Assembly (NCBI RefSeq): GCF_009649845.1
Contig: NZ_WJIE01000015.1
Location: 62,001 to 126,000, forward strand
From: Polyangium spumosum
GTDB lineage: Bacteria; Myxococcota_A; Polyangia; Polyangiales; Polyangiaceae
Direction of reading: 5' to 3'
DNA length: 64,000 nt
In this document: positions 4,929 through 64,000 of the stretch, one piece after another
How the letters are laid out: each line of letters starts with the position of its first letter
How positions within the stretch are numbered: position 1 is the stretch's first letter
Notes under the pieces: model-generated
Told to the model about the DNA's origin: nothing
Seen by the model: the letters and a program-made list of their open reading frames with translations, nothing else
Database searches by the model: none
Program-made: the position numbers and the translations under genes

Positions 4929-4997
4929 CGCGCGGATACTACCGCTGCCAGTCGCCAGGGGAAGCCCCAGGGCGCATCCCGACGGGAACGGCTCGTG

Positions 4998-5243
4998 TTC
5001 CGCGAGGGCCGAGTCGTGTTCCGCGAGGGCCGGGTCGCGTTCCGCGAGGGCCGGGTCGCGTTCCGCGAGGGCCGGGTCTCATTCCGCGAGGGCCGGGTCT
5101 CATTCCGCGAGGGCCGAGTCTCGTTCCGCGAGGGCCGGGTCGCATTCCGCAAGGGCCGGGTCGCATTCCGCGAGGGCCGACTCGTATTCCGCGAGGGCCG
5201 ACTCGTGTTCCGCGAGGGCCGGGTCGCGTTCCGCGAGGGCGCT
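4998..5243. repeat. 21-bp minisatellite, 12 copies
   Basis: Unit ttccgcgagggccgRgtcNYR begins at 4998 and recurs every 21 bp exactly to 5229 (12 starts); the last copy is cut after ttccgcgagggc. Units differ by single bases, e.g. ttccgcaagg at 5145. Because 21 is a multiple of 3, both strands stay open (forward heptapeptide FREGRVV/A/S). There are no unique spacers between units, so this is not CRISPR. It fills most of the 381-bp gap between the divergent starts at 4928 and 5310. Confidence 0.95.
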
Positions 5244-54746: not shown

Positions 54747-54822
54747 CGCTCGCCTGATCGCCTGCGATCCTGCGGACATCGCTGCCTTGCGTCTCCGACA
54801 CGAGGGGCTAGGCTGCGCGAAC

Positions 54823-56655
54823 ATGGCGGCGATGATGCGAAGTGCCCCGAGGGATCGCGAAGCGCGACACGAGCACGCCCCCGCGGGAGGAGCACGCGCC
54901 GAGGAGAGGTATTCGCCGCCCGAGGAGGCGCCGCCCGAGCCGGCCATGTCGAGCGCCGAGCGGCTGCGCACGCTCATCGAGGCCTCGCCCGATCCCATTT
55001 TCATGAAGGACGGCGAGGGCCGCTGGCTCGAGGTCAATCGCGCGGGGCTCGAGCTCTTCGGGCTCGAGGGCGTCGATTACCAGGGCAAGAGCGAGGCCGA
55101 GCTCTCCGCCTTCACGCCTTTTTATCGCCAGGCATTGCTCTTTTGCCCGGATACGGACCGGGTCGCCTGGGACGCGGGCAAGCTCTCCCGCGTCGAGGAG
55201 TCCGTGCCCCGGCCCGACGGCTCGGTCCGGACGTACGACGTCTACAAGGTCCCGCTCTTTTATCCGGACGGCCGGCGCAAGGGCCTCGTCGCGCTCGGGC
55301 GTGACATCACCGACCGGCGTCGCGCCGAAGAGGAGCGCGACAAGCTGCTCGAAAAGGAGCAAGCCGCCCGCGCCGCCGCCGAGCGCGCCGAGCGCCGCTC
55401 GGCCTTCCTCGCCGAGACCACGCGGATCCTCTCGGGCACCCTCGATTACGAGGACACCGCGACCCGCCTCGCCCACCTCTGCGTCCCCTTCGCCGCCGAC
55501 TGGTGCGCGGTCTGGACCGTGGACGGCCATGGCGGCGTGCACCTCGGCGCCCTCGCCCACGTCGACCCTGCGCGTGAGGCCCTCGCCGCGCCTGGCTCCA
55601 TCCGCGTCGAGCCCGACCTTCCGGGTGGCGTCTCCCACGTCGTCCGTTTTGGCCAGCCGCTGCTTTGCCCCTCGGTCGCCGACACGCCCGAGGCGCGCCT
55701 CGCGGCCCTCGGCACGCGGGATCCTTCTTGCGAAGAGCTCGTCCGCACCCTGGGCCTCTCCTCGTACGTGGCGGTCCCGCTCGTCGCGCGTGGCCGGACG
55801 CTCGGCGCCATCACCCTCGCGCGTATGCCTGGCTCGCCGTCGGCTTGCGCGGCCGACCTCACGCTCGCCGAGGACCTCGGGCACCACGCGGCGCTCGCCC
55901 TCGCGAATGCGCGGCTCTACGAGGAGTCGCAGGAGGCCATCCGTGCGCGCGACGAGTTCCTCTCGATTGCCTCGCACGAGCTGCGCACCCCGTGCACCTC
56001 GCTGCGTCTCGGCATCGAGGCATTGCTGCGGCATGCGCGCGCGGGCAAGCTCGATCGAATGCCGGCGCCGCTGATCGAGCGCCTGCTCGAGACGAGTGAT
56101 CGACAGAGCAAGCACCTGCTCCATTTGATCGACCGCCTGCTCGACGTCTCGCGCCTGGAGGCAGGGCACCTGGATCTGGAGCTCGAAGAGGTCGATCTCG
56201 CGGCATTGACGCGCGAGGCCGCGGGCGAGCTCCGCGAGGAGAGCGCGCGGATGGGCGGCACGTTGCTCGTCGAAGCCGAGCGGCCGGTGCGTGGGATGTG
56301 GGACCGGGCGCGTCTGCGGCAGGTGGTGACGAATTTGCTCGGCAATGCGCTCAAGTACGGCGCCGGCAAGCCGGTGCGTGTGCGCGCCTCTGGAGACGAA
56401 TCGCAGGCGTGGTTGTGCGTGGAGGATCGGGGGATCGGGATCCCGGAGGACCGGCAGCCGCACATCTTCGAGCGATTCGAGCGCGCGGTGTCGTCGCGGC
56501 ATTATGGGGGGCTCGGCTTGGGGCTGTACATCGTGCGGCAGATCGTCGAGGCGCACGGGGGGACGATCGCGCTGGCGAGTCACCCGGGGGAGGGCTCGAC
56601 GTTCACGGTGACACTGCCGAAGGCGCGCGCAGCGGTGACGGCGCGAGCTTCCTGA
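54823..56655 (+). CDS. PAS-GAF sensor histidine kinase
   Basis: 610 residues from ATG 54823. PAS (RLRTLIEASPDPIFMKDGEGRW and VALGRDITDRRRAEEE), a GAF-like domain (ETTRILSGTLDYEDTATRLA, VAVPLVARGRTLGAITLAR), then HisKA (H-box ASHELRTPCTSL) and HATPase (NLLGNALKYG, EDRGIGIPED, FERFERAVSSRHYGGLGLGL). Soluble, no TM helices. The partner response regulator is not in the window. The last gene before the minisatellite that was invaded by the IS elements. Confidence 0.93.
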   Translation: MAAMMRSAPRDREARHEHAPAGGARAEERYSPPEEAPPEPAMSSAERLRTLIEASPDPIFMKDGEGRWLEVNRAGLELFGLEGVDYQGKSEAELSAFTPFYRQALLFCPDTDRVAWDAGKLSRVEESVPRPDGSVRTYDVYKVPLFYPDGRRKGLVALGRDITDRRRAEEERDKLLEKEQAARAAAERAERRSAFLAETTRILSGTLDYEDTATRLAHLCVPFAADWCAVWTVDGHGGVHLGALAHVDPAREALAAPGSIRVEPDLPGGVSHVVRFGQPLLCPSVADTPEARLAALGTRDPSCEELVRTLGLSSYVAVPLVARGRTLGAITLARMPGSPSACAADLTLAEDLGHHAALALANARLYEESQEAIRARDEFLSIASHELRTPCTSLRLGIEALLRHARAGKLDRMPAPLIERLLETSDRQSKHLLHLIDRLLDVSRLEAGHLDLELEEVDLAALTREAAGELREESARMGGTLLVEAERPVRGMWDRARLRQVVTNLLGNALKYGAGKPVRVRASGDESQAWLCVEDRGIGIPEDRQPHIFERFERAVSSRHYGGLGLGLYIVRQIVEAHGGTIALASHPGEGSTFTVTLPKARAAVTARAS

Positions 56656-56671: not shown

Positions 56672-56721
56672 CGTGGACGAGAGCGCCGAGGGCTACGACG
56701 CGGTCCCAGAGCGCTACGACG
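56672..56721. repeat. 21-bp minisatellite, left part
   Basis: One degenerate unit (56672) and one full ctacgacgcggtcccagagcg-type unit (56693), then CTACGACG (56714-56721), which is the left target-site copy of element A. The array continues after the element at 59653. Confidence 0.9.
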
Positions 56722-56778
56722 GGTAGTGGCTGGATCCGGCCACGTGTCGAAAGTGGCGGGACATCCGCCCGGCCACTT

Positions 56779-57903
56779 TCAGCGGGGCTCGTCGTCGGGG
56801 AAGAGGGAGAGCTGGCCCTTCGGGTGCGGCTTCGGCTGCCACGAGAAGAGGTCGTACTGGCCGTTCGCGTCGGCTGCGGGTCCGGCGCTCGCGACCATCG
56901 CGGGGACGGGCGCGGTGGGCTCGGGAGGTCGTACATCATGCCCGGCGTGACGCTCGCCTTTGCCCCCGCCGACCAGGCGCAGGAACCCACGCCCGCCGGG
57001 CAACTCGCGCGCCGGGCCTTCGGGCTCCCGATGCCGCAGCGCTTCCTTGACCGGCGGGTCGCACGGCTTGGCAGTCATGAGCGCGTCCAGCAACTCCTCC
57101 ATCTCCCAGAGGTGATCGGTCACGTGCGCGGCCATTCCCGGCGTCGTGCGGAGCGTGCTCACGATATGGCACATGTTGTAATGCACGTAGGCCAGGGAGA
57201 CGGCGGCGCGGTGATTCTCGGGGCGCTTGCTGAAGGCGTACGAGAGACGCCGCATACGACCAATATGGTGGCGCATGGTGCCGTTCTGGCGCTCCATGTA
57301 CGCGGTGCTCGCCGTGTCGAGGTCGGGAGCGCCGAAGATCGCCCGCTTCGTGATGAAGTGCGCCTCGCGCGCGGGCTCGTACCGGTGGTCATCGTCGCGG
57401 CGCCCCTTGCGGCTGTAGTTCTTGACGGTCTGCGCGTAGTCGACGCCGGGCCCGAAGGAAGCGCCCACGGCGGCGATGTACGGGGCGAAGCCGTCGGACA
57501 CGATCGACGGCATGACGCAGAGCCGCGCGCGAACATCCTCCATGAACGCCCGCGCGCTCTCCTCGTTCCGCTTGCCGACGTGCCAGCCGATGACGAAGCG
57601 GCTCGTGGCCGACATGGCAACGAAAGTGTACGCCTCGCCCACGTAGGGCGGATCCTCGGGCGTCACGCGCTTCTGCTTCTTGCCGACGTACGACCAGATC
57701 TCGTCGACCTGGATCAGCGACGCCGCGAGGTGCCGCGCGAGCGCGTTGTGCAGGTTCAAGGCGCCGGTCCCGAACTGCAAGGACAGGCGCCCGACCGTCT
57801 CCCGATCGACGCCCGCAATCCGGGCCGCGGCGCGCTCGGAATTACCGTCCACGAGCGCCGAGAGGACACGCAGGCGCTTCGATCCATCCAAGGACGCTCC
57901 CAT
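56779..57903 (-). CDS. IS1-superfamily transposase (element A)
   Basis: 374 residues from ATG 57903 (GAGGA six bases upstream). DDE motif: first Asp in VDEIWSYVGKKQKR, second in SDGFAPYIAAVG, Glu in YMERQNGTMRHHIGRM, matching IS1 InsB elements (MDEQWGYVG and RIERHNLNLR) in order and surroundings. N-terminal helices KRLRVLSALVDGNSERAAARIAGVDRETV form a helix-turn-helix in place of the IS1 zinc finger. The C-terminus is Lys/Pro-rich (KPHPKGQLSLF). The stop (56779) overlaps the subterminal inverted repeat gaaagtgg/ccactttc. It is most like the transposase of element C. Confidence 0.93.
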   Translation of the reverse strand: MGASLDGSKRLRVLSALVDGNSERAAARIAGVDRETVGRLSLQFGTGALNLHNALARHLAASLIQVDEIWSYVGKKQKRVTPEDPPYVGEAYTFVAMSATSRFVIGWHVGKRNEESARAFMEDVRARLCVMPSIVSDGFAPYIAAVGASFGPGVDYAQTVKNYSRKGRRDDDHRYEPAREAHFITKRAIFGAPDLDTASTAYMERQNGTMRHHIGRMRRLSYAFSKRPENHRAAVSLAYVHYNMCHIVSTLRTTPGMAAHVTDHLWEMEELLDALMTAKPCDPPVKEALRHREPEGPARELPGGRGFLRLVGGGKGERHAGHDVRPPEPTAPVPAMVASAGPAADANGQYDLFSWQPKPHPKGQLSLFPDDEPR

Positions 57904-58065
57904 GGCTTCCTCGCCACGGCGACGGTCTCCCGGGCGCCCCTTCGCGCCCTCGCCGCGTCGCCGTTGACAAACAGAAGGTACCACGAAACGCCACGAAAAC
58001 GTGGAGAATCTGCGCACCGATCGGACGTTAATTGTCCTAGCGAGGCGGGGCCGTCGCCGCGAATT

Positions 58066-58094
58066 TTTACGCGCCCTGTGGCATGTAGTACGAT
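58066..58094 (+). promoter_or_regulatory. Candidate promoter of cargo operon in element A
   Basis: TTTACG (58066-58071), 17-base spacer, TACGAT (58089-58094). The predicted start of transcription falls at about 58101, the ATG of the next gene, which has no Shine-Dalgarno sequence, so a leaderless mRNA is likely. Confidence 0.35.
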
Positions 58095-58100
58095 CAGCGC

Positions 58101-58385
58101 ATGCCGATTCTCATCATCGGAAGCAAATCGTTGCTTGTGTGCGTCAATCGCGAACATCCCACGCATATTGCAACGGGTCAAGACACCACCATGTCGGCCG
58201 ATGTGTCGCAGTGGTTCGCGCTCTTGGCGGCCAATCCACCGAACAAGACCGGAGCGCCGGCTCATGTTGCGCTCGGTGGCCTATTTCTGCCCACGCGACC
58301 ATACATATGCCAGATCTGTGGCTACGTGGAACTGTACGCCGCCGGAATCCTTGAGCCCGGAACGTTCCGCGGGGAGTCGCGATGA
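58101..58385 (+). CDS. Small CxxC cargo protein of element A, hypothetical
   Basis: 94 residues (MPILIIGSKSLLVCVNREHP...). Sequence is visibly more AT-rich than the surrounding chromosome, with different codon choice. One CxxC (ICQIC near residue 70) plus an earlier C/H cluster could hold zinc. No signal or TM. Not recognised. The last codons overlap the next gene's start (ATGA), so both are translated together. Confidence 0.6.
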   Translation: MPILIIGSKSLLVCVNREHPTHIATGQDTTMSADVSQWFALLAANPPNKTGAPAHVALGGLFLPTRPYICQICGYVELYAAGILEPGTFRGESR

Positions 58386-58885
58386 ACGAGTCAAGCGAGT
58401 TGAAGCAACGACCCGCGGAACCTTATGCTGGTCTACCGCCGGCATTACAACAGGCATTCAGCGGAGCGGCCCACAGCAGAGCGTCGTCGATGGCTTCAGC
58501 AGCACCGAAAGTGAAGGATGCTGAAGTGGATATCATTAAAGCAGCGCTGCATAATCCCCTTCAGAAGCCCGATAACGTCACTTCTCTTATCGGCGCGGGC
58601 GGGTCGCTTGGCATGATCGTGGCTGCTTTGAAGGACATCTTCAAAGGTCCGATAGGCTTGTTTGACGTGGCATTGGCCATGTTGGGAATGGGGCTCTTGG
58701 TTGCACAAGTCGTGGTTTACGCTATGAAGCGACAGACGTCAGATAGCGAGCCATTTCACGCCCTGGCAAAGAGCTATGTAAACGTATTGATGCAGGAAAT
58801 AGAAGTATACAGGCGCAGCTATGGCCTGCCAGATGGCGTCCGACCTCCGTCGGGTAATCCGCCGGAGGGTAATGCGAATGGATAG
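58382..58885 (+). CDS. Two-TM cargo protein of element A, hypothetical
   Basis: 167 residues. Hydrophilic N-terminus, two helices in the middle (VTSLIGAGGSLGMIVAAL and DVALAMLGMGLLVAQVVVYAM), then a soluble C-terminus ending in Pro/Asn-rich PPSGNPPEGNANG. Low GC and codon use unlike host genes. Overlaps 58101-58385 by 4 bases. Small two-TM proteins paired with a soluble partner are common as effectors in defence or toxin-antitoxin-type modules, but no evidence for such an activity is visible here. Confidence 0.6.
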   Translation: MNESSELKQRPAEPYAGLPPALQQAFSGAAHSRASSMASAAPKVKDAEVDIIKAALHNPLQKPDNVTSLIGAGGSLGMIVAALKDIFKGPIGLFDVALAMLGMGLLVAQVVVYAMKRQTSDSEPFHALAKSYVNVLMQEIEVYRRSYGLPDGVRPPSGNPPEGNANG

Positions 58886-58907
58886 TTGATTGATGTGGGA
58901 GGGGTGA

Positions 58908-59153
58908 TTAGGCCGTTGGTGCGGCGGCGTCGATCCGGGCTTCAAGCTCCCGGATGCCGCGCAGCATCTCCCGGCGCAGGTAGGCGCGAGCGTGGACGCG
59001 CTTCGACGGTGCGGCCGTCGCATCTTCGGCGAGCGCCCGGAGGCTCGCCACGACGGGACGAAGCAGGCTCGCGTAGGTCGCCAACGCGGCCGGGTCGGTC
59101 GTCTGCACGGCGGCGCGGATGCGCTCGCGCTCCCTCACGCGGGAGCGCTTCAT
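58908..59153 (-). CDS. Small helical protein of element A regulatory operon
   Basis: 81 residues from ATG 59153, which overlaps the stop of the HTH gene (ATGA). Basic N-terminus MKRSRVRERERIRAAV, then amphipathic helices (LLRPVVASLRALAED, LRREMLRGIRELEARI). Probably a DNA-binding or partner protein of the HTH regulator. No relative is obvious in element B, which has a second HTH and a sigma factor in the same operon position. Confidence 0.55.
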   Translation of the reverse strand: MKRSRVRERERIRAAVQTTDPAALATYASLLRPVVASLRALAEDATAAPSKRVHARAYLRREMLRGIRELEARIDAAAPTA

Positions 59154-59506
59154 GCTGCCCTCCCGATGACGGGCGTCGTCACGACGAGCTTGCCGCCGAG
59201 AAGGACCTCGACCGCGACGCCCGCGATGGCGGCCAGGCGGATCGCGAACGTGCCCGTGGGCGGCGTGCCCTTCGGGTTCGCGATGCGGCGGACGGTGTTC
59301 GCGGGCATGTTCAGCCGCGCGGCGAGCGCGTTGAAGCTCCCGAACGCACGGCGGAGCTTGCGGACGGCGACGCGCACGTGGCGCGCTTCGTCCTTGGAGA
59401 GCATGAGCGCGTCCGACTTGCGACGGGGGCGCGGCGTCTCGGGTTCGGGCGGGCAGGGCGGATCGTTCTCTTGGCCGTAGCTGCCGGGCCATGACAGATC
59501 GTGCAT
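59150..59506 (-). CDS. HTH regulator of element A
   Basis: 118 residues from ATG 59506 (a TTG at 59539 is less likely). The HTH is ARHVRVAVRKLRRAFGSFNALAARLNMPANTVRRIANPKG, read as helix, turn and recognition helix, followed by GTFAIRLAAIAGVAVEVLLGGKL. The first gene of element B's operon (62755-63090) has the same layout (NIARAYGGRDVLAAVMGVSKDALNNIIRG then VAVLLARAGGIPVEQVLSG). The leader upstream shares cgaggtcacgccc with B. Overlaps 58908-59153. Confidence 0.75.
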   Translation of the reverse strand: MHDLSWPGSYGQENDPPCPPEPETPRPRRKSDALMLSKDEARHVRVAVRKLRRAFGSFNALAARLNMPANTVRRIANPKGTPPTGTFAIRLAAIAGVAVEVLLGGKLVVTTPVIGRAA

Positions 59507-59652
59507 GGGCGTGACCTCGTGGATGCGAAGTTGCGTCAAGTCGCCCCGGTGGTGTCTTCAGCGCCATCGGGGCGGCGTCTTGCACGAGCGTAGATCACGA
59601 CGCGCTCGCCGGATCGTCATCCAGCCACTTTCACGGATATCCGGCCACTACC

Positions 59653-59765
59653 CTACGACGCGGTCCCAGAGCGCTACGACGCGGTCCCAGAGCGCTACGA
59701 CGCGGTCCCAGAGCGCTACGACGCGGTCCCAGAGCGCTACGACGCGGTCACCGAGGGCTACGACG
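59653..59765. repeat. 21-bp minisatellite, part between elements A and B
   Basis: Five full units ctacgacgcggtcccagagcg (starts 59653, 59674, 59695, 59716, 59737; the fifth reads ...cggtcaccgaggg) and then CTACGACG (59758-59765), the left target-site copy of element B. One frame encodes heptapeptide YDAVPER. Confidence 0.95.
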
Positions 59766-59938
59766 GGTGCCGGTCAAATTTGACCGACCCCCCGTTCGTC
59801 TAGGCAAACCTTCCCGCTCCCTTCCGTGACCTCCCCTACCGCCTCACGGGTCGGTCTAGTAATGTCCGTTGCAGGAGCAGAATCCGCTCCTCGTCTTCCG
59901 CGATCCCATGTAGGGTCGGACCCCTGAACAGATGAAAG

Positions 59939-59971
59939 GCCTCCCCGGGCGCTACTGACACCCGGGGAGGC
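59939..59971. promoter_or_regulatory. Strong hairpin in leader of transposase B
   Basis: Perfect 11-bp inverted repeat gcctccccggg (59939-59949) and cccggggaggc (59961-59971), loop of 11 bases, no T run. It lies 86 bases upstream of the transposase start in the element's left leader; such stems in IS elements can block translation of transcripts reading in from outside. Confidence 0.6.
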
Positions 59972-60056
59972 TGCGGAACGCCGGACGGGAGACCCGTAGC
60001 AGCGCACGACGCGCGCGGAGCATGGGTCGGCCGATCGGAGAAGGCAAGGTCTGCCC

Positions 60057-61148
60057 ATGGGAAACGTGCTCGCCTGGGAGCGGCGGGTCGCGGTCGTGTG
60101 TCATCTAGTCGAAGGGGCGAGCGTCAATGCAACGGCGCGGATGACCGGCGTGTCGAAGCCGACGATCCTCTCCCTCCTTCTACAGAGCGGCGAGGGATGC
60201 GACCGGATCCACGACGCGCGCGTGCATTCGCTCGCGATCCGAGACGTCGAGATCGATGAGCTTTGGAGCTTCATTCAGAAGAAGCAGCGGCGCGTCGGGC
60301 CTGCCGATCCCCCGCATTGGGGAGACGCCTACGCCTTCCTGGCAATGGCCCGGACGCAAAAGCTCTTGATCGCCTACCGGGTCGGGAAGCGCGACGAGCA
60401 GAACACACGCGCCTTCGTTGCCGATCTGCGGGCCCGTCTCGCGGTCGTGCCTGCGATCACCTCGGACGGCTTCACGGCCTACCCTACCGCGGTAGGAGAG
60501 AGCTTCGCGATCGATGGGCAGGCCGGCGCCGCGGTCGACTACGTCGTGCTCCTAAAGGAGTTCAATGGGCGCCGGTTCAAGGATGACTCGGTGCGGTATG
60601 AGCCGCCCCGGGAGCCCGTCATGCATAAGCGCGGGGTCTATGGCGCTCCCGACCTTGACCGGGCGAGCACGTCTCACATTGAAAGAGCGAACCTCACGGT
60701 TCGTATGCATATCCGACGCTTCACCCGCCTATGCAATGGGTACAGCAAGAGCCTGCCTCACCATAAGGCGGCTGTCTCGCTGCACGTCGCCTTCTATAAT
60801 TGGTGCCGGGTGCACGAGACGCTCCGGGTCACGCCTGCAATGGAGGCAGGGCTGACCGATCACGTCTGGACGGTCGATGAGCTGCTGAGAGAGGCGCTCG
60901 GCGCGCCGGTACAGGAGAAGCCCCGCGTCCGGCCCTTGCGCCTGCCTGACCCGGGCACGGCGAAGGAGCTGCCCGGCGGCCGCGGATGGCTCCGCGCGGT
61001 CCCGAGCACGGGCAAGGCGGGGGCGGGGCCGACCGCCGCGCCTACGCCTCCCCGGCCTCCGGAGGCGCCTGCCGTGAGGCCGGTAGCGGCTCCCCGGCGT
61101 CGATGGGTACAGATGGATCTGTTCGGGTGGAAGCCCCCGGAGAAGTGA
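60057..61148 (+). CDS. IS1-superfamily transposase (element B)
   Basis: 363 residues, ATG 60057. DDE residues in DVEIDELWSFIQKKQRR, ITSDGFTAYPTAVG and THIERANLTVRMHIRRF (SHIERANLTVR), with an N-terminal HTH (VNATARMTGVSKPTILSLLLQ). It differs clearly from A's transposase (about one third of positions look identical by eye), so A and B are separate families of the same superfamily. Pro-rich C-terminus (TAAPTPPRPPEAPAVRP), ends KPPEK. Confidence 0.93.
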   Translation: MGNVLAWERRVAVVCHLVEGASVNATARMTGVSKPTILSLLLQSGEGCDRIHDARVHSLAIRDVEIDELWSFIQKKQRRVGPADPPHWGDAYAFLAMARTQKLLIAYRVGKRDEQNTRAFVADLRARLAVVPAITSDGFTAYPTAVGESFAIDGQAGAAVDYVVLLKEFNGRRFKDDSVRYEPPREPVMHKRGVYGAPDLDRASTSHIERANLTVRMHIRRFTRLCNGYSKSLPHHKAAVSLHVAFYNWCRVHETLRVTPAMEAGLTDHVWTVDELLREALGAPVQEKPRVRPLRLPDPGTAKELPGGRGWLRAVPSTGKAGAGPTAAPTPPRPPEAPAVRPVAAPRRRWVQMDLFGWKPPEK

Positions 61149-61226
61149 CCGGATGGCCTTGACGGGGCAATGCGGGTGTCCATGCTACGCATGCAATGGG
61201 AGCGCTCCATTTTAGGAGGTGCTCCC

Positions 61227-61439
61227 GTGTTCAAGCGACGACCGCTCTTGCAGCACAGCGTAGATACCCTGTCAAAAGAGGGTAAGGCAGACGTCATGGT
61301 GGTAGGGCTTCCCGTGGAATACAGCGACGGGAAGATATACCCCATGTACAATATCGATCTCGCTCGCGTCGATCCGGTGTTCATCAATGATAGGATCGTT
61401 GCGCTGGAGATTCTGGCCCCGCCGCCTTGGCTGAACTGA
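61227..61439 (+). CDS. Small cargo protein of element B, hypothetical
   Basis: 70 residues from GTG 61227, where AGGAGG (61214-61219) is ideally placed; the frame is open from 61170 but has no ribosome site there. Product VFKRRPLLQHSVDTLSKEGKADV... ends IVALEILAPPPWLN, a small alpha/beta protein without signal. It follows the transposase by 78 bases. Not recognised. Confidence 0.5.
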   Translation: MFKRRPLLQHSVDTLSKEGKADVMVVGLPVEYSDGKIYPMYNIDLARVDPVFINDRIVALEILAPPPWLN

Positions 61440-61442
61440 CGG

Positions 61443-61757
61443 CTACTTCGCTCCGGTGCGGATCGTCACGACAAGGTGCTTGCGCACGGCGTCTGCAAAT
61501 TCAGGGCCGTTGATATTCACTCGATCGGCCCCGATGTTCGCGTAGATATCCTGCCCGTCCACGTCGAAGGTGACACCTCGCGCGTACGTTCGGCCGTTGC
61601 TCACAACCGTGTACTCTGCACGCATAGGAAGGCCGGTTGACGGCGCAACGATCGCGACGTTGCAATACTGAAAAGCGTATTGCGCCCCGTCTACCTCTAC
61701 CTGCCCGATCGTTCGGATTGTACGATCTAATGCGTCCGCTGCTCGTGCGTGATCCAT
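61443..61757 (-). CDS. Small cargo protein of element B, hypothetical
   Basis: 104 residues from ATG 61757 (GTG 61790 is an alternative). Beta-rich pattern (RTIRTIGQVEVDGAQYAFQYCNVAIV, RAEYTVVSNGRTYARGVTFDVDGQDIYANI) ends in EFADAVRKHLVVTIRTGAK. No signal or TM. Not recognised. It converges on the small plus gene with a 3-base gap. More AT-rich than the host average. Confidence 0.5.
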   Translation of the reverse strand: MDHARAADALDRTIRTIGQVEVDGAQYAFQYCNVAIVAPSTGLPMRAEYTVVSNGRTYARGVTFDVDGQDIYANIGADRVNINGPEFADAVRKHLVVTIRTGAK

Positions 61758-61922
61758 GATGCCTGCGAACCTACCGCACTCCAGCCGCACGGATCCATCC
61801 GGGGCATGCGTTCAGGGCAGGCGTAACCCGGCCTTCCCGGGCCTCTATGGCCGGCGTAGGCTCTCAGGATGTCTGCGGTAGGGATCGGGGCAGGACGGGC
61901 GTCTAGCGGGCCCGGGGAGGGC

Positions 61923-62507
61923 CTATCGGCCGCGCTTACGCTGCTTCCAACCGGGGCGAGGCGCCTGCTTTGGAGCCGGCTCCGCGCCGAGCTTCCGAAG
62001 GAGACGGCGGAGTTCCTGGACGTGCCGGTGATGCGTGGACGGGTTGCGCCCGCTCTCCTTCGCGGCCTCAGCGACCGTGAAGCCGAGCAAGGCGAGGAGC
62101 AGGGCGTTCGCGGCCTTCGGGCGCATGCGAGCGACGGCGCGGAGGAGATCCCGCGCTTCGGCCGCCTCGCGCGGGTCAATGTTCCCGACGAGCTTGTCGA
62201 CGTCGCCGGTGTATTCGTACCGGTTCCGGTGTCGCCTGCGATAGTTCGATGCCCGGAACCATGTGACCGCGCGGAGGAAGACCTCCAAGGTCTTCTCGGG
62301 CGGGACGCGCGCGGAGCCGCGGATCTTGCAGTCTCGGGCCGACTCGCACGCCGCGATCATGACGTCCTGCACGATGTCCTCGGCATCGCCGATGCGCACG
62401 CCGTACCGGAGCGCGGCCTCGCGGATGAATGCACGGCGTGCGTTGATCTCCTCGGCCGACACGTCGACATAGGGATCCCCGCCGTCGGGGTGAGGCCGGT
62501 ACTTCAT
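61923..62507 (-). CDS. ECF-like sigma factor of element B
   Basis: 194 residues. Region 2: EDIVQDVMIAACESARD and FLRAVTWFRASNYRRRHRNR; region 4 HTH: LLLALLGFTVAEAAKESGRNPSTHHRHVQELRRLL. Region 1.1 and region 3 are absent, so ECF-like. Basic tail KQAPRPGWKQRKRGR. ATG 62507 overlaps the stop of the second HTH gene (ATGA), third cistron of the operon. A sigma factor on an IS element is unusual and probably drives transcription of the element's own genes. Confidence 0.8.
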   Translation of the reverse strand: MKYRPHPDGGDPYVDVSAEEINARRAFIREAALRYGVRIGDAEDIVQDVMIAACESARDCKIRGSARVPPEKTLEVFLRAVTWFRASNYRRRHRNRYEYTGDVDKLVGNIDPREAAEARDLLRAVARMRPKAANALLLALLGFTVAEAAKESGRNPSTHHRHVQELRRLLRKLGAEPAPKQAPRPGWKQRKRGR

Positions 62508-62758
62508 GACGGCCTCCCGATCAACGCGTCGAGGTCAATGCGGGCGACGCGCGCGACTTGGGCGGCAAAGTGAACCGAGGCGCGGATCTCGCCCGCGATC
62601 ACGGCCTGCATGTAGCGCCGCGAGTAGCCGAGGGCTCGCGCGGCAAGGCGGACGCTCGTCCCGCGCGCAAAGCGCTCCAATCGGGCGCGGACGCGCGCGT
62701 TCTGCTCGTCGGTGAGGATCGCGGGCACGCTCGGCGGATCGGTGTCGGGGAGGCTCAC
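62504..62758 (-). CDS. Second HTH protein of element B
   Basis: 84 residues from GTG 62758, which overlaps the upstream stop (GTGA) and has GGGAGG six bases before; a longer start at 62782 is less likely. HTH: VRARLERFARGTSVRLAARALGYSRRYMQAVIAGEIRAS, resembling XRE-type repressors, then a small C-terminal helix. Between the first HTH protein and the sigma factor, with overlaps on both sides, so the three are made together. Confidence 0.72.
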   Translation of the reverse strand: MSLPDTDPPSVPAILTDEQNARVRARLERFARGTSVRLAARALGYSRRYMQAVIAGEIRASVHFAAQVARVARIDLDALIGRPS

Positions 62759-63090
62759 GATGCGCCTCCCTTCCGCCCGCATAGGGCGCAGGCGCCCGCG
62801 ACGTGCGGGCGGCCGGAAAGGACCTGCTCGACGGGAATGCCGCCCGCTCGGGCGAGCAGGACGGCGACGGCGTAGGACGAACCGCGGATGATGTTGTTGA
62901 GGGCGTCCTTTGACACGCCCATGACCGCCGCGAGCACGTCCCGCCCGCCATAGGCGCGGGCGATGTTGCGTTCAGCGGCGCGCATATGGGCGCGCTCGTC
63001 TCGGGTAGGGTAGAGCGCCGGACTCTTCCGGCGATCGGAAGGCGGACGGGTTCCTTGGCCCCGCGGAGCGGGGTGTACTAGGCGAAGCAC
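62755..63090 (-). CDS. HTH regulator of element B, first gene of regulatory operon
   Basis: 111 residues from GTG 63090. The start is supported by a leader nearly identical to that of element A's HTH gene (cgaggtcacgccc directly before the start in A; gaggtcacgccct in B). HTH AERNIARAYGGRDVLAAVMGVSKDALNNIIRG followed by AVAVLLARAGGIPVEQVLSG, and a C-terminal Cys pair (ACALCGRKGGAS), possibly metal-binding. ATG 62985 is a shorter alternative. Probable repressor of element B genes. Confidence 0.72.
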   Translation of the reverse strand: MLRLVHPAPRGQGTRPPSDRRKSPALYPTRDERAHMRAAERNIARAYGGRDVLAAVMGVSKDALNNIIRGSSYAVAVLLARAGGIPVEQVLSGRPHVAGACALCGRKGGAS

Positions 63091-63250
63091 AGGGCGTGAC
63101 CTCGGATACGGGGTTGCGGCCTAGCGGCCCTGTAAGCGTTGCTACCGCTTGCGGGGCCGCGCTGTTTGCCCGGACCCTACACTCCCGTCCTTCCCCCTGC
63201 TACGTCAGAATCTCAAACTTGACCGCTACGGGGCAAACTTGACCGGCACC

Positions 63251-63300
63251 CTACGACGCGGTCACCGAGCGCTACGACGCGGTCCCAGAGCGCTACGACG
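63251..63300. repeat. 21-bp minisatellite, part between elements B and C
   Basis: Two full units at 63251 (ctacgacgcggtcaccgagcg) and 63272 (ctacgacgcggtcccagagcg), then CTACGACG (63293-63300), the left target-site copy of element C. Confidence 0.95.
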
Positions 63301-64000
63301 GGTAGTGTCCTAATTAGGACAACCCTCGCCCCAAACTAGGACACTCGGATCCGCCTCTCCGACGTGCCCGGACAACCTCTCTCCCGAGCCCTACTGAACG
63401 CACGCCGCGGACACGAATCGTCCGCGCATCGAACGAAGCGCTTGACCTTCGTTTCGGCCTGTTTTCGCATCGCCACGTACCCGGACGAACCTCTCATGAT
63501 GAGACATTCTATGTCCTAGCTCCGCGGGAAAACCCGGGAAACCGCGACAAAACGTGGTAGTTTGGGTCCATCACTTGACGCCCCGAAGGGTCGGAGCCGC
63601 GAACGCGGACGACGCCGGGGCCGAGAACGAGGGACCCGTGGCGAACTTCCTTCCCGAGGAGAAGCGTCTGCGCGTGCTCGCCGCGCTCTGCGACGGCAAC
63701 AGCATCCGCGCGGTCGAGCGGATGACCGACGTCCACCGGGACACGATCATGCGCCTCGGCCTCGCCTGGGGAGAGGGCGCGCAGAACCTCCACAACCGCC
63801 TCGCCCGCGGGCTTTCGTGCTCCCTCGTGCAGATGGACGAGGTGTGGAGCTTCGTGCAGAAGAAGCAGGCCCGCGTGACCCCGGAGGACGGGCCCGACGT
63901 CGGCGAGGCGTACACGTTCACGGCCCTCGACGCGTCGAGCCGCTTCGTCATCGCCTGGCACGTGGGGAAGCGCGACCAAGCATCGACGGACGTCTTCATG
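63301..64000. mobile_element. IS1-superfamily element C, right part outside window
   Basis: Left end GGTAGTGTCCTAATTAGGAC at 63301 directly after CTACGACG, with the perfect 16-bp palindrome tgtcctaattaggaca just inside. Further copies of the gtcctag motif occur at about 63337 and 63512. About 340 bases of leader without a gene precede the transposase. The right end and right target-site copy are not in the window, so only the left junction is established. Confidence 0.8.
63638..64000 (+). CDS. IS1-superfamily transposase (element C), 3' end outside window
   Basis: First 121 residues from GTG 63638 (GAGGGA four bases upstream; TTG 63575 is an alternative). N-terminal HTH KRLRVLAALCDGNSIRAVERMTDVHRDTIMRL, first catalytic Asp in VQMDEVWSFVQKKQAR, and YTFTALDASSRFVIAWHVGKRDQ. 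Closest relative in the window is the transposase of element A (KRLRVLSALVDGNSERAAARIAG; FVAMSATSRFVIGWHVGKR). Second Asp and Glu lie beyond the edge. The frame is open to 64000. Confidence 0.9.
   Translation, partial: MANFLPEEKRLRVLAALCDGNSIRAVERMTDVHRDTIMRLGLAWGEGAQNLHNRLARGLSCSLVQMDEVWSFVQKKQARVTPEDGPDVGEAYTFTALDASSRFVIAWHVGKRDQASTDVFM

Follow-up and report, generated by a model that had tools for sequence, protein, structure and literature searches.

Classical insertion sequences (ISs) of the IS1 family are short (about 0.7-1.1 kb), encode a frameshifted InsA/InsB transposase and carry no passengers. The 64-kb window of the Polyangium spumosum genome analyzed here (G000:C15:62001-126000; genome size 10.76 Mb) contains three mobile elements, termed A, B and C, which resemble the IS1 family (PF03400; NF033558) in possessing a related DDE transposase, GGT-type ends and an 8-bp target-site duplication (TSD). 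However, the elements of this genome do not have the classical layout: they are 2.7-5.1 kb long, encode the transposase in a single open reading frame (ORF) of ~360-380 aa with a C-terminal extension, carry several other ORFs, fall below the NCBIfam IS1 cut-off and are inserted in minisatellites. Preference for repetitive extragenic DNA is shared with the ISs that target repetitive extragenic palindromes (REPs), such as IS1397, ISKpn1, IS621, ISPpu9/10, ISPsy8 and ISRm22. PMC1525189 assigns REP-palindrome targeting to the IS3, IS110, IS4, IS256 and IS5 families; its table also has an entry for IS1 in Shigella flexneri, at 6 of 101. Compared to these ISs, the elements described here (16 of 17 in arrays, and the other, P, in a locally repeated palindrome) are found mainly in direct tandem arrays, with weak dyad symmetry.

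Two further systems involve the replication clamp. Clamp-binding transposases, including that of IS1634, belong to nine families and share a QLxLF-type motif near the C-terminus, according to PMC4549789. The IS1-type enzymes described here carry a similar motif, differing in that it is often doubled, lies on a Pro-rich arm and is accompanied by array insertion. The TnsE pathway of Tn7 likewise mediates clamp-dependent targeting of replicating DNA, which for the present elements is a model; in PMC5371812, Tn7 uses a separate targeting protein with less strict sequence requirements and a bias in orientation, whereas the insertions described here are phase-specific and occur in both orientations. 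In the titles and abstract openings of the literature searched, in which subscription journals are thinly covered, we found no report of ISs targeting minisatellites, and did not meet the combination of an IS1-type enzyme, an often-double clamp-like tail, cargo and minisatellite targeting. Replication-state targeting plus a phase motif is not described for ISs in the literature found.

Elements A (56722-59652) and B (59766-63250) are each enclosed by two copies of the octamer CTACGACG, at 56714-56721 and 59653-59660 for A, and at 59758-59765 and 63251-63258 for B. A preliminary description of the window had bounded both elements by these octamers, and its coordinates proved exact. Element C starts at 63301, directly 3' of another CTACGACG copy (63293-63300). 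Extension into the parent contig revealed that C covers G000:C15:125301-128030 (2,730 bp) and is followed by CTACGACG and ~5 repeat units, as had been predicted. The 21-bp register of the repeat is continuous across A, B and C, save for exactly 8 duplicated bases; because the register is kept apart from these 8 bases, the CTACGACG pairs read as a true TSD, in line with the earlier claim of a duplicated octamer and of three entries at one phase of the repeat. In the window, CTACGACG occurs 15 times against an expectation of 1.89 (at least 15 in 0/100 shuffles), and all 11 genomic matches to the pattern CTACGACGSGGTSMC fall at this locus. The paired ends of A, B and C match at 13, 18 and 19 of their first 24 bases, respectively. 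The transposase of A shares 46% identity with that of B and 61% with that of C; therefore the insertions are independent and not copies of one, which agrees with the preliminary description. We interpret the locus as a pile-up of three independent IS1-superfamily cargo transposon insertions in one 21-bp minisatellite.

Further analysis of the genome revealed 17 open IS1-like transposase genes, none of which has internal stops. All 17 lie within elements of 2,730-5,132 bp that are bounded by imperfect inverted ends of the GGT type and by target duplications of exactly 8 bp. One array holds A, B and C, another F and G, and a third J and K; D and E are close relatives of A (93% protein identity), and the three occupy different arrays. 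Empty sites were rebuilt by script, joining both flanks with one TSD copy, and were scored as array-like if a 42-bp stretch within 100 bp on each side had a self-identity of at least 32/42 at a lag of 15-99 bp. Array-like sites hosted 16 of the 17 elements, with the exception of P, compared to 195 of 8,545 control positions, and had lags of 21, 42-44 and 85 bp. A narrower earlier test scored 15 of 17 sites as array-like, with H and P under the threshold, against 123/2,555 intergenic and 151/18,812 coding control positions (4.8% of intergenic and 1.3% of all positions); the binomial P is ~2e-18, or ~2e-13 when the sites are collapsed to 13 loci (11/13). These elements have a target preference for minisatellites, which we state with high confidence.

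The targets differ in sequence. The preliminary description had taken the three insertions as repeated targeting of one sequence, a wording that the data do not support: the TSDs among the other 14 elements include CGTGGGCG, CGTGCGCT, CGTCCGAG, GGTCGAGG and AGCCGGAT, and 13 of these 14 elements reside in ~21-bp-type arrays other than that of the window. A single unique target sequence was rejected, as the window repeat is confined to the window locus and the other elements lie in other arrays. The targets are better regarded as a class of DNA, comprising many different minisatellites, with the phase probably set by a weak symmetric motif. P lies in a palindrome, of which the same 12-kb locus has three further copies (at 212737, 213613 and 216618) that are uninterrupted. 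Lags at the array sites cluster near multiples of 21 bp, corresponding to two helical turns, while the unit sequences differ; the transposase might be recruited by intrinsic bending of helically phased repeats, or by a host protein that binds ~21-bp phased arrays (nucleoid-associated, or acting as a fork barrier or in partition), with the clamp-like C-terminal tail being incidental. We consider this unlikely, given that no such protein was identified here and that 43 and 21 bp are simply the commonest lags among the intergenic control arrays of this genome.

The features of the window are as follows.

54787-56655, plus strand: PAS/GAF histidine kinase gene on the left side of the array; five congeners also have it, with no array after it there.
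56693-56721, plus strand: left part of the 21-bp minisatellite, one exact unit and the 8-bp TSD of A.
56722-59652, no strand: element A, 2931 bp, ends GGTAGTGGC..., TSD CTACGACG.
56779-57903, minus strand: transposase A, 374 aa from a conserved start, with helix-turn-helix (HTH) and DDE core; weak PF03400/NCBIfam IS1 match.
56800-56859, minus strand: C-terminal tail of transposase A with putative clamp-like motifs QYDLF (349-353) and QLSLF (364-368), read from the sequence against the consensus in PMC4549789 and PMC5371812.
58101-58885, plus strand: two ORFs (94 and 167 aa) that may be passengers of A; no confident family for the 167-aa ORF.
58908-59539, minus strand: accessory module of A, a weakly HTH-like protein (59150-59539) and a small ORF (58908-59159).
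59653-59765, plus strand: minisatellite stretch separating A from B, with five units, all exact but one variant, and the 8-bp TSD.
59766-63250, no strand: element B, 3485 bp, ends GGTGCCGGTCAA..., TSD CTACGACG.
60057-61148, plus strand: transposase B, 363 aa, C-terminal QMDLF; PF03400 at 34.7 bits.
61110-61124, plus strand: clamp-like QMDLF of transposase B, residues 352-356.
61923-62507, minus strand: sigma-70-like protein of B; region 4 at E=3e-5, below the cut-off.
62504-63090, minus strand: two small, weakly HTH-like genes of B (62504-62782 and 62755-63090).
63251-63300, plus strand: minisatellite between B and C, two units and the 8-bp TSD.
63301-64000, no strand: left part of element C, ends GGTAGTGTCCTAATTAGG, TSD CTACGACG on both sides.
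63641-64000, plus strand: N-terminal part of transposase C; the full protein has 372 aa, with terminal QMDLL and QLSFF.

A second 21-bp array of the window, at 4989-5240, has 12 copies and is element-free.

The assignment to the IS1 superfamily made in the preliminary description, which took the ends and the 8-bp duplication to agree with IS1, is borne out by PF03400 matches and by all 17 elements of the genome, with the amendment that those of the window are not plain ISs, being 2.7-3.5 kb long and carrying other genes. PF03400 is matched by 32/32 aligned members at E<=0.01 (best 2.8e-10); relative to its gathering score of 24.1, B is above (34.7 bits) and A just below (22.8-23.3 bits). Scores against the NCBIfam IS1 equivalog, 43-65 bits in four proteins or fragments, stay under its cut-off of 100 bits. 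Sequence search of the PDB with transposase A gave no relevant match. In the predicted model of transposase A, the HTH and DDE core regions mostly have a predicted local distance difference test (pLDDT) score >90. Structural similarity search using Foldseek returned DDE/retroviral-integrase folds, the best being ISCth4 (E=4e-6, TM ~0.3), a result that speaks to the class of the core fold only.

Downstream of the core, the model has a linker (~310-340) at pLDDT 37-39 and a short tail with the sequence QYDLFSW...QLSLF. A loose motif, QxxL/M(F/L/W/Y), is present within the last 60 residues of 17/17 transposases here and of 28/30 long transposases of related hosts, namely Sorangium, Polyangium and genomes of the same family. 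Two motifs are found in nine of the 17 and the strict QLxLF also in nine. Across a set of 44 proteins, 29 have two motifs and 34 the strict form; as this set was picked as motif bearers, its 44/44 is no test, and 17/17 and 28/30 are the fair counts. By comparison, 257 predicted control proteins yielded the loose motif in six, two motifs in none and the strict form in one. Of the 68 closed transposases with a length of 230 aa or more that are not among the 44, one (L100) has the motif, and none of the eight ORFs here that match other transposase families has it. PMC4549789 and PMC5371812 place the clamp consensus of transposases, QLxLF, close to the C-terminus; the tail motifs resemble this beta-sliding-clamp motif, from which we infer candidate clamp binding.

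Relatives in other hosts were collected by a contig scan (best 80 of 538 loci) and from 59 genomes including the source, 14 of which had matches. Duplicates (L014, L015, L016, L018 and L113) were dropped, together with seven of the 27 outside motif-bearing transposases that had unclear ends or an imperfect TSD (L022, L099, L107-L110 and one of two in L112); the dropped L108, with one TSD mismatch, lies in an array. Outside the motif set, 29 of 80 rows were dropped for unclear ends, including L114 and L100, a P. fumosum transposase at a contig end that carries QLSLF; because L119 repeats L029, the motif-less total is 50 and not 51. In other hosts, 13 of 20 motif-bearing elements sit in arrays (controls, 21/1,538 positions), as do 3 of 50 motif-less elements (controls, 22/4,207 positions). 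Pooled with this genome, the counts are 29/37 versus 3/50 (Fisher P=1.2e-12; rows not independent). Array lags in the Polyangium and Sorangium genomes, including the source, are 21, 41-44, 63-64 and 84-85 bp. The motif-less set, mostly from Acidobacteria, Proteobacteria and other phyla, keeps GGTAGTG-like ends and 8-9-bp duplications; it is therefore the array habit, not the IS1-type chemistry, that differs. The short transposases L119 and L120 (both G015), whose host is in the same taxonomic family, lack the motif and are not in arrays. As a side observation, L094, L102 and L103, elements of Polyangium genomes G001 and G003, sit in copies of one REP-like palindromic intergenic repeat.

These relatives bear on survivorship, that is, random insertion with persistence only in dispensable repeats. 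Tolerance of intergenic DNA would indeed lift the array share somewhat, given 4.8% of intergenic versus 1.3% of all control positions, and the suggestion of the preliminary description that insertion into a multicopy repeat avoids gene damage is plausible. It is nevertheless insufficient as an explanation, since so small a share of intergenic control positions is array-like compared to 15/17 element sites. In addition, 47/50 motif-less relatives persist outside arrays, and the ends of three tentative elements of other IS families in this genome are not in arrays either, with arrays elsewhere in two of those loci. Survivorship would not predict a fixed phase, and we regard it as quite improbable.

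We propose a mechanism in which the transposase would bind the host beta sliding clamp (DnaN) through a C-terminal arm that is disordered and Pro-rich and bears one or two QLxLF-like motifs, and the clamp-bound arm would bring the transpososome to replicating DNA. Minisatellites may be places where forks slip or pause and where clamps and gaps are left behind, which would make them preferred and harmless landing sites; the HTH-like module and the variable passengers would travel with the transposase. The joint reading, in which the elements are cargo transposons of the IS1 superfamily and their transposase, tethered to replication, selects minisatellites, we hold to be reasonably probable. Its clamp step, tail-DnaN binding and recruitment to replicating DNA, is quite possible, and we put it forward with reserve. 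The most specific version, in which an IS1-type transposase fused to a flexible, often double clamp arm homes to replication-unstable minisatellites of many sequences, is offered tentatively. If true, fast-evolving tandem arrays would become safe havens that accumulate cargo transposons, and targets would be chosen by the replication state of repeated DNA, together with a weak motif for the phase. Such a mechanism would join two seldom-linked subjects, transposons that spare their host and transposase use of the replication clamp, and may explain the build-up of cargo transposons in intergenic minisatellites of large myxobacterial genomes. The family, with tail-bearing and tail-less members and a readable target (array or not), also allows a direct test of whether the clamp selects targets or only raises the rate, and nature has supplied dozens of insertions in it for which the phase is resolved.

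The phase of insertion was compared between sites that resemble each other. Ten of 37 sites match the CGTGGGCG-AGACCTGGAGACG unit at >=28/50, and 10/10 are at phase 0, in three genomes including G002 and G004; the unit was taken from the site of F, leaving nine of the ten informative. No orientation bias relative to the array was seen among these 10 sites (six versus four). For the window unit, phase 0 is used at four of five matching sites, and that of A is one of the four. After symmetrisation, the site profile reads about CNCGYSSRCGNG and is weak, at <=0.34 bits per position. A motif trained without similar sites ranked the true phase first at 14/39 and within the top three at 20/39 sites, with a mean rank of 5.7 against an expected 11. 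Dyad symmetry reaches 6.18 of 14 pairs at the TSD versus 3.87 at other centres (P=9e-6), a test that counts A, B and C though all lie in one array. The statistics support a weak symmetric motif (about CNCGYSSRCGNG) that would set the phase within the array.

The strongest rival is built on this motif: a weak palindromic target would be recognized by the transposase or a co-factor, arrays would multiply one good site, and the tail would raise the rate only. It accounts for the fixed phase and the weak symmetry, and for non-array elements being often in palindromic repeats (L101-L103 and P); moreover, PMC4549789 reports a clamp motif raising the transposition rate, as for IS1634. On the other hand, <=0.34 bits per position is too little to pick arrays, which make up ~2% of positions, several array sites are ranked poorly by the motif (element L and L024 21st of 21, L097 17th), and the arrays used differ widely in sequence. 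Sequence recognition alone is thus a possible explanation, which we hold as tentatively as the double clamp arm.

Comparison with congeners addresses the order of events. Five congeners retain the left flank of the window site (86-87% identity); in them, the kinase gene is followed by a short spacer and then a protein-kinase-like gene. A tandem array downstream of the kinase gene was found in 0/5 congeners, and the window-locus array appears peculiar to this genome among those compared. Regarding the genes beyond the window elements, one has congener matches elsewhere and another has its matches 13-28 kb from the kinase gene in 4/5 congeners; a rearrangement or large insertion at the window array (56656 onward; L142-L146) is possible. 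The preliminary description had proposed a search of related genomes for empty arrays, which are absent at this locus and present elsewhere: at the right flank of J/K, 10/10 homologues in five congeners adjoin 21-, 42- or 43-bp-type arrays (L160-L169), and L161 and L162 have the array and no element. The J/K-flank gene is multicopy (~177 aa), and its neighboring arrays are fast-evolving. None of five congeners matched the O site at E<=1e-60; the left flank of Q has matches in 4/5 congeners that stop short of the array, and flank pieces of the L104 site occur in 2/5 genomes, with a 21-bp array in none. In 456.6 kb of control DNA there are 40 period-21-type arrays, of which many are two-copy and some probably coding.

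That the elements create the arrays, or that one insertion was duplicated along with its flanks, could be read from the five congeners that lack both array and elements at the window locus. Yet element-free arrays exist, for which reason array-making by elements was rejected; target duplication cannot supply the remaining 13 bp that each unit has beyond the TSD, and A, B and C have different ends, with the transposases of B and C as far from that of A as given above. Either origin is highly improbable.

Several points weigh against a replication-tethered choice of minisatellites. Seven of the 20 motif-bearing elements in other hosts are outside arrays (L094, L101, L102, L103, L106, L115 and L116); inspection by eye places L094 and L101-L103 in intergenic repeats of palindromic type and the other three in no visible repeat, though the DNA around L115 is rich in palindromes. 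P, outside any array, is by eye also in a palindromic repeat. Conversely, L017 (Sorangium), L024 (uncultured Myxococcales) and L053 (Acidobacteria) are motif-less yet in arrays, and the long transposases L017, with a shortened tail, and L114 lack the motif. All motif bearers come from Polyangium, Sorangium or same-family genomes, which are rich in arrays, and phylogeny confounds the motif-array association. The array calls for D and L095 (exactly at the threshold of 32) and L112 (33) are borderline. The control of other IS families is small, its ends are tentative, and two of its loci have arrays elsewhere. With respect to phase, L104 is at phase 12, one of five sites matching the window unit, and the poor ranks of element L, L024 and L097 count here too. 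Finally, as array and elements are both missing at the window locus in the five congeners, these give no support to an array-first order there, and the homologues of the J/K flank, whose gene is multicopy, may not be strict orthologues.

The gene content of the elements was derived by a simple GC-frame script, whose short ORFs may be spurious. All 17 elements carry the transposase and 14 carry a member of the weakly HTH-like cluster; in C, D and G, it looks as if the caller chose another frame of apparently the same module. A BLASTP cluster that includes the weakly sigma-like protein of B is present in 7/17 elements, and the remaining ORFs are mostly confined to a single element. The accessory module of A (58908-59539) has 82-87% DNA identity to other elements. 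With the close relatives D and E set aside, this module has 82-85% DNA identity between elements versus 71-74% for the transposase genes; because the modules are more alike than the transposase genes, this suggests their exchange between elements. A passenger of element F (392 aa, L004:6186-7364) matches PADLOC PDC-S42 (E=4e-95) and also the NCBIfam model "LAPAL motif-containing putative phage structural protein" (255 bits, cut-off 60); as the two matches disagree, we do not claim a defence role for it. Element E carries a DUF4747 passenger (L003:6460-7332, E=6e-61), beside which is a 276-aa ORF that has no family match and looks membrane-bound.

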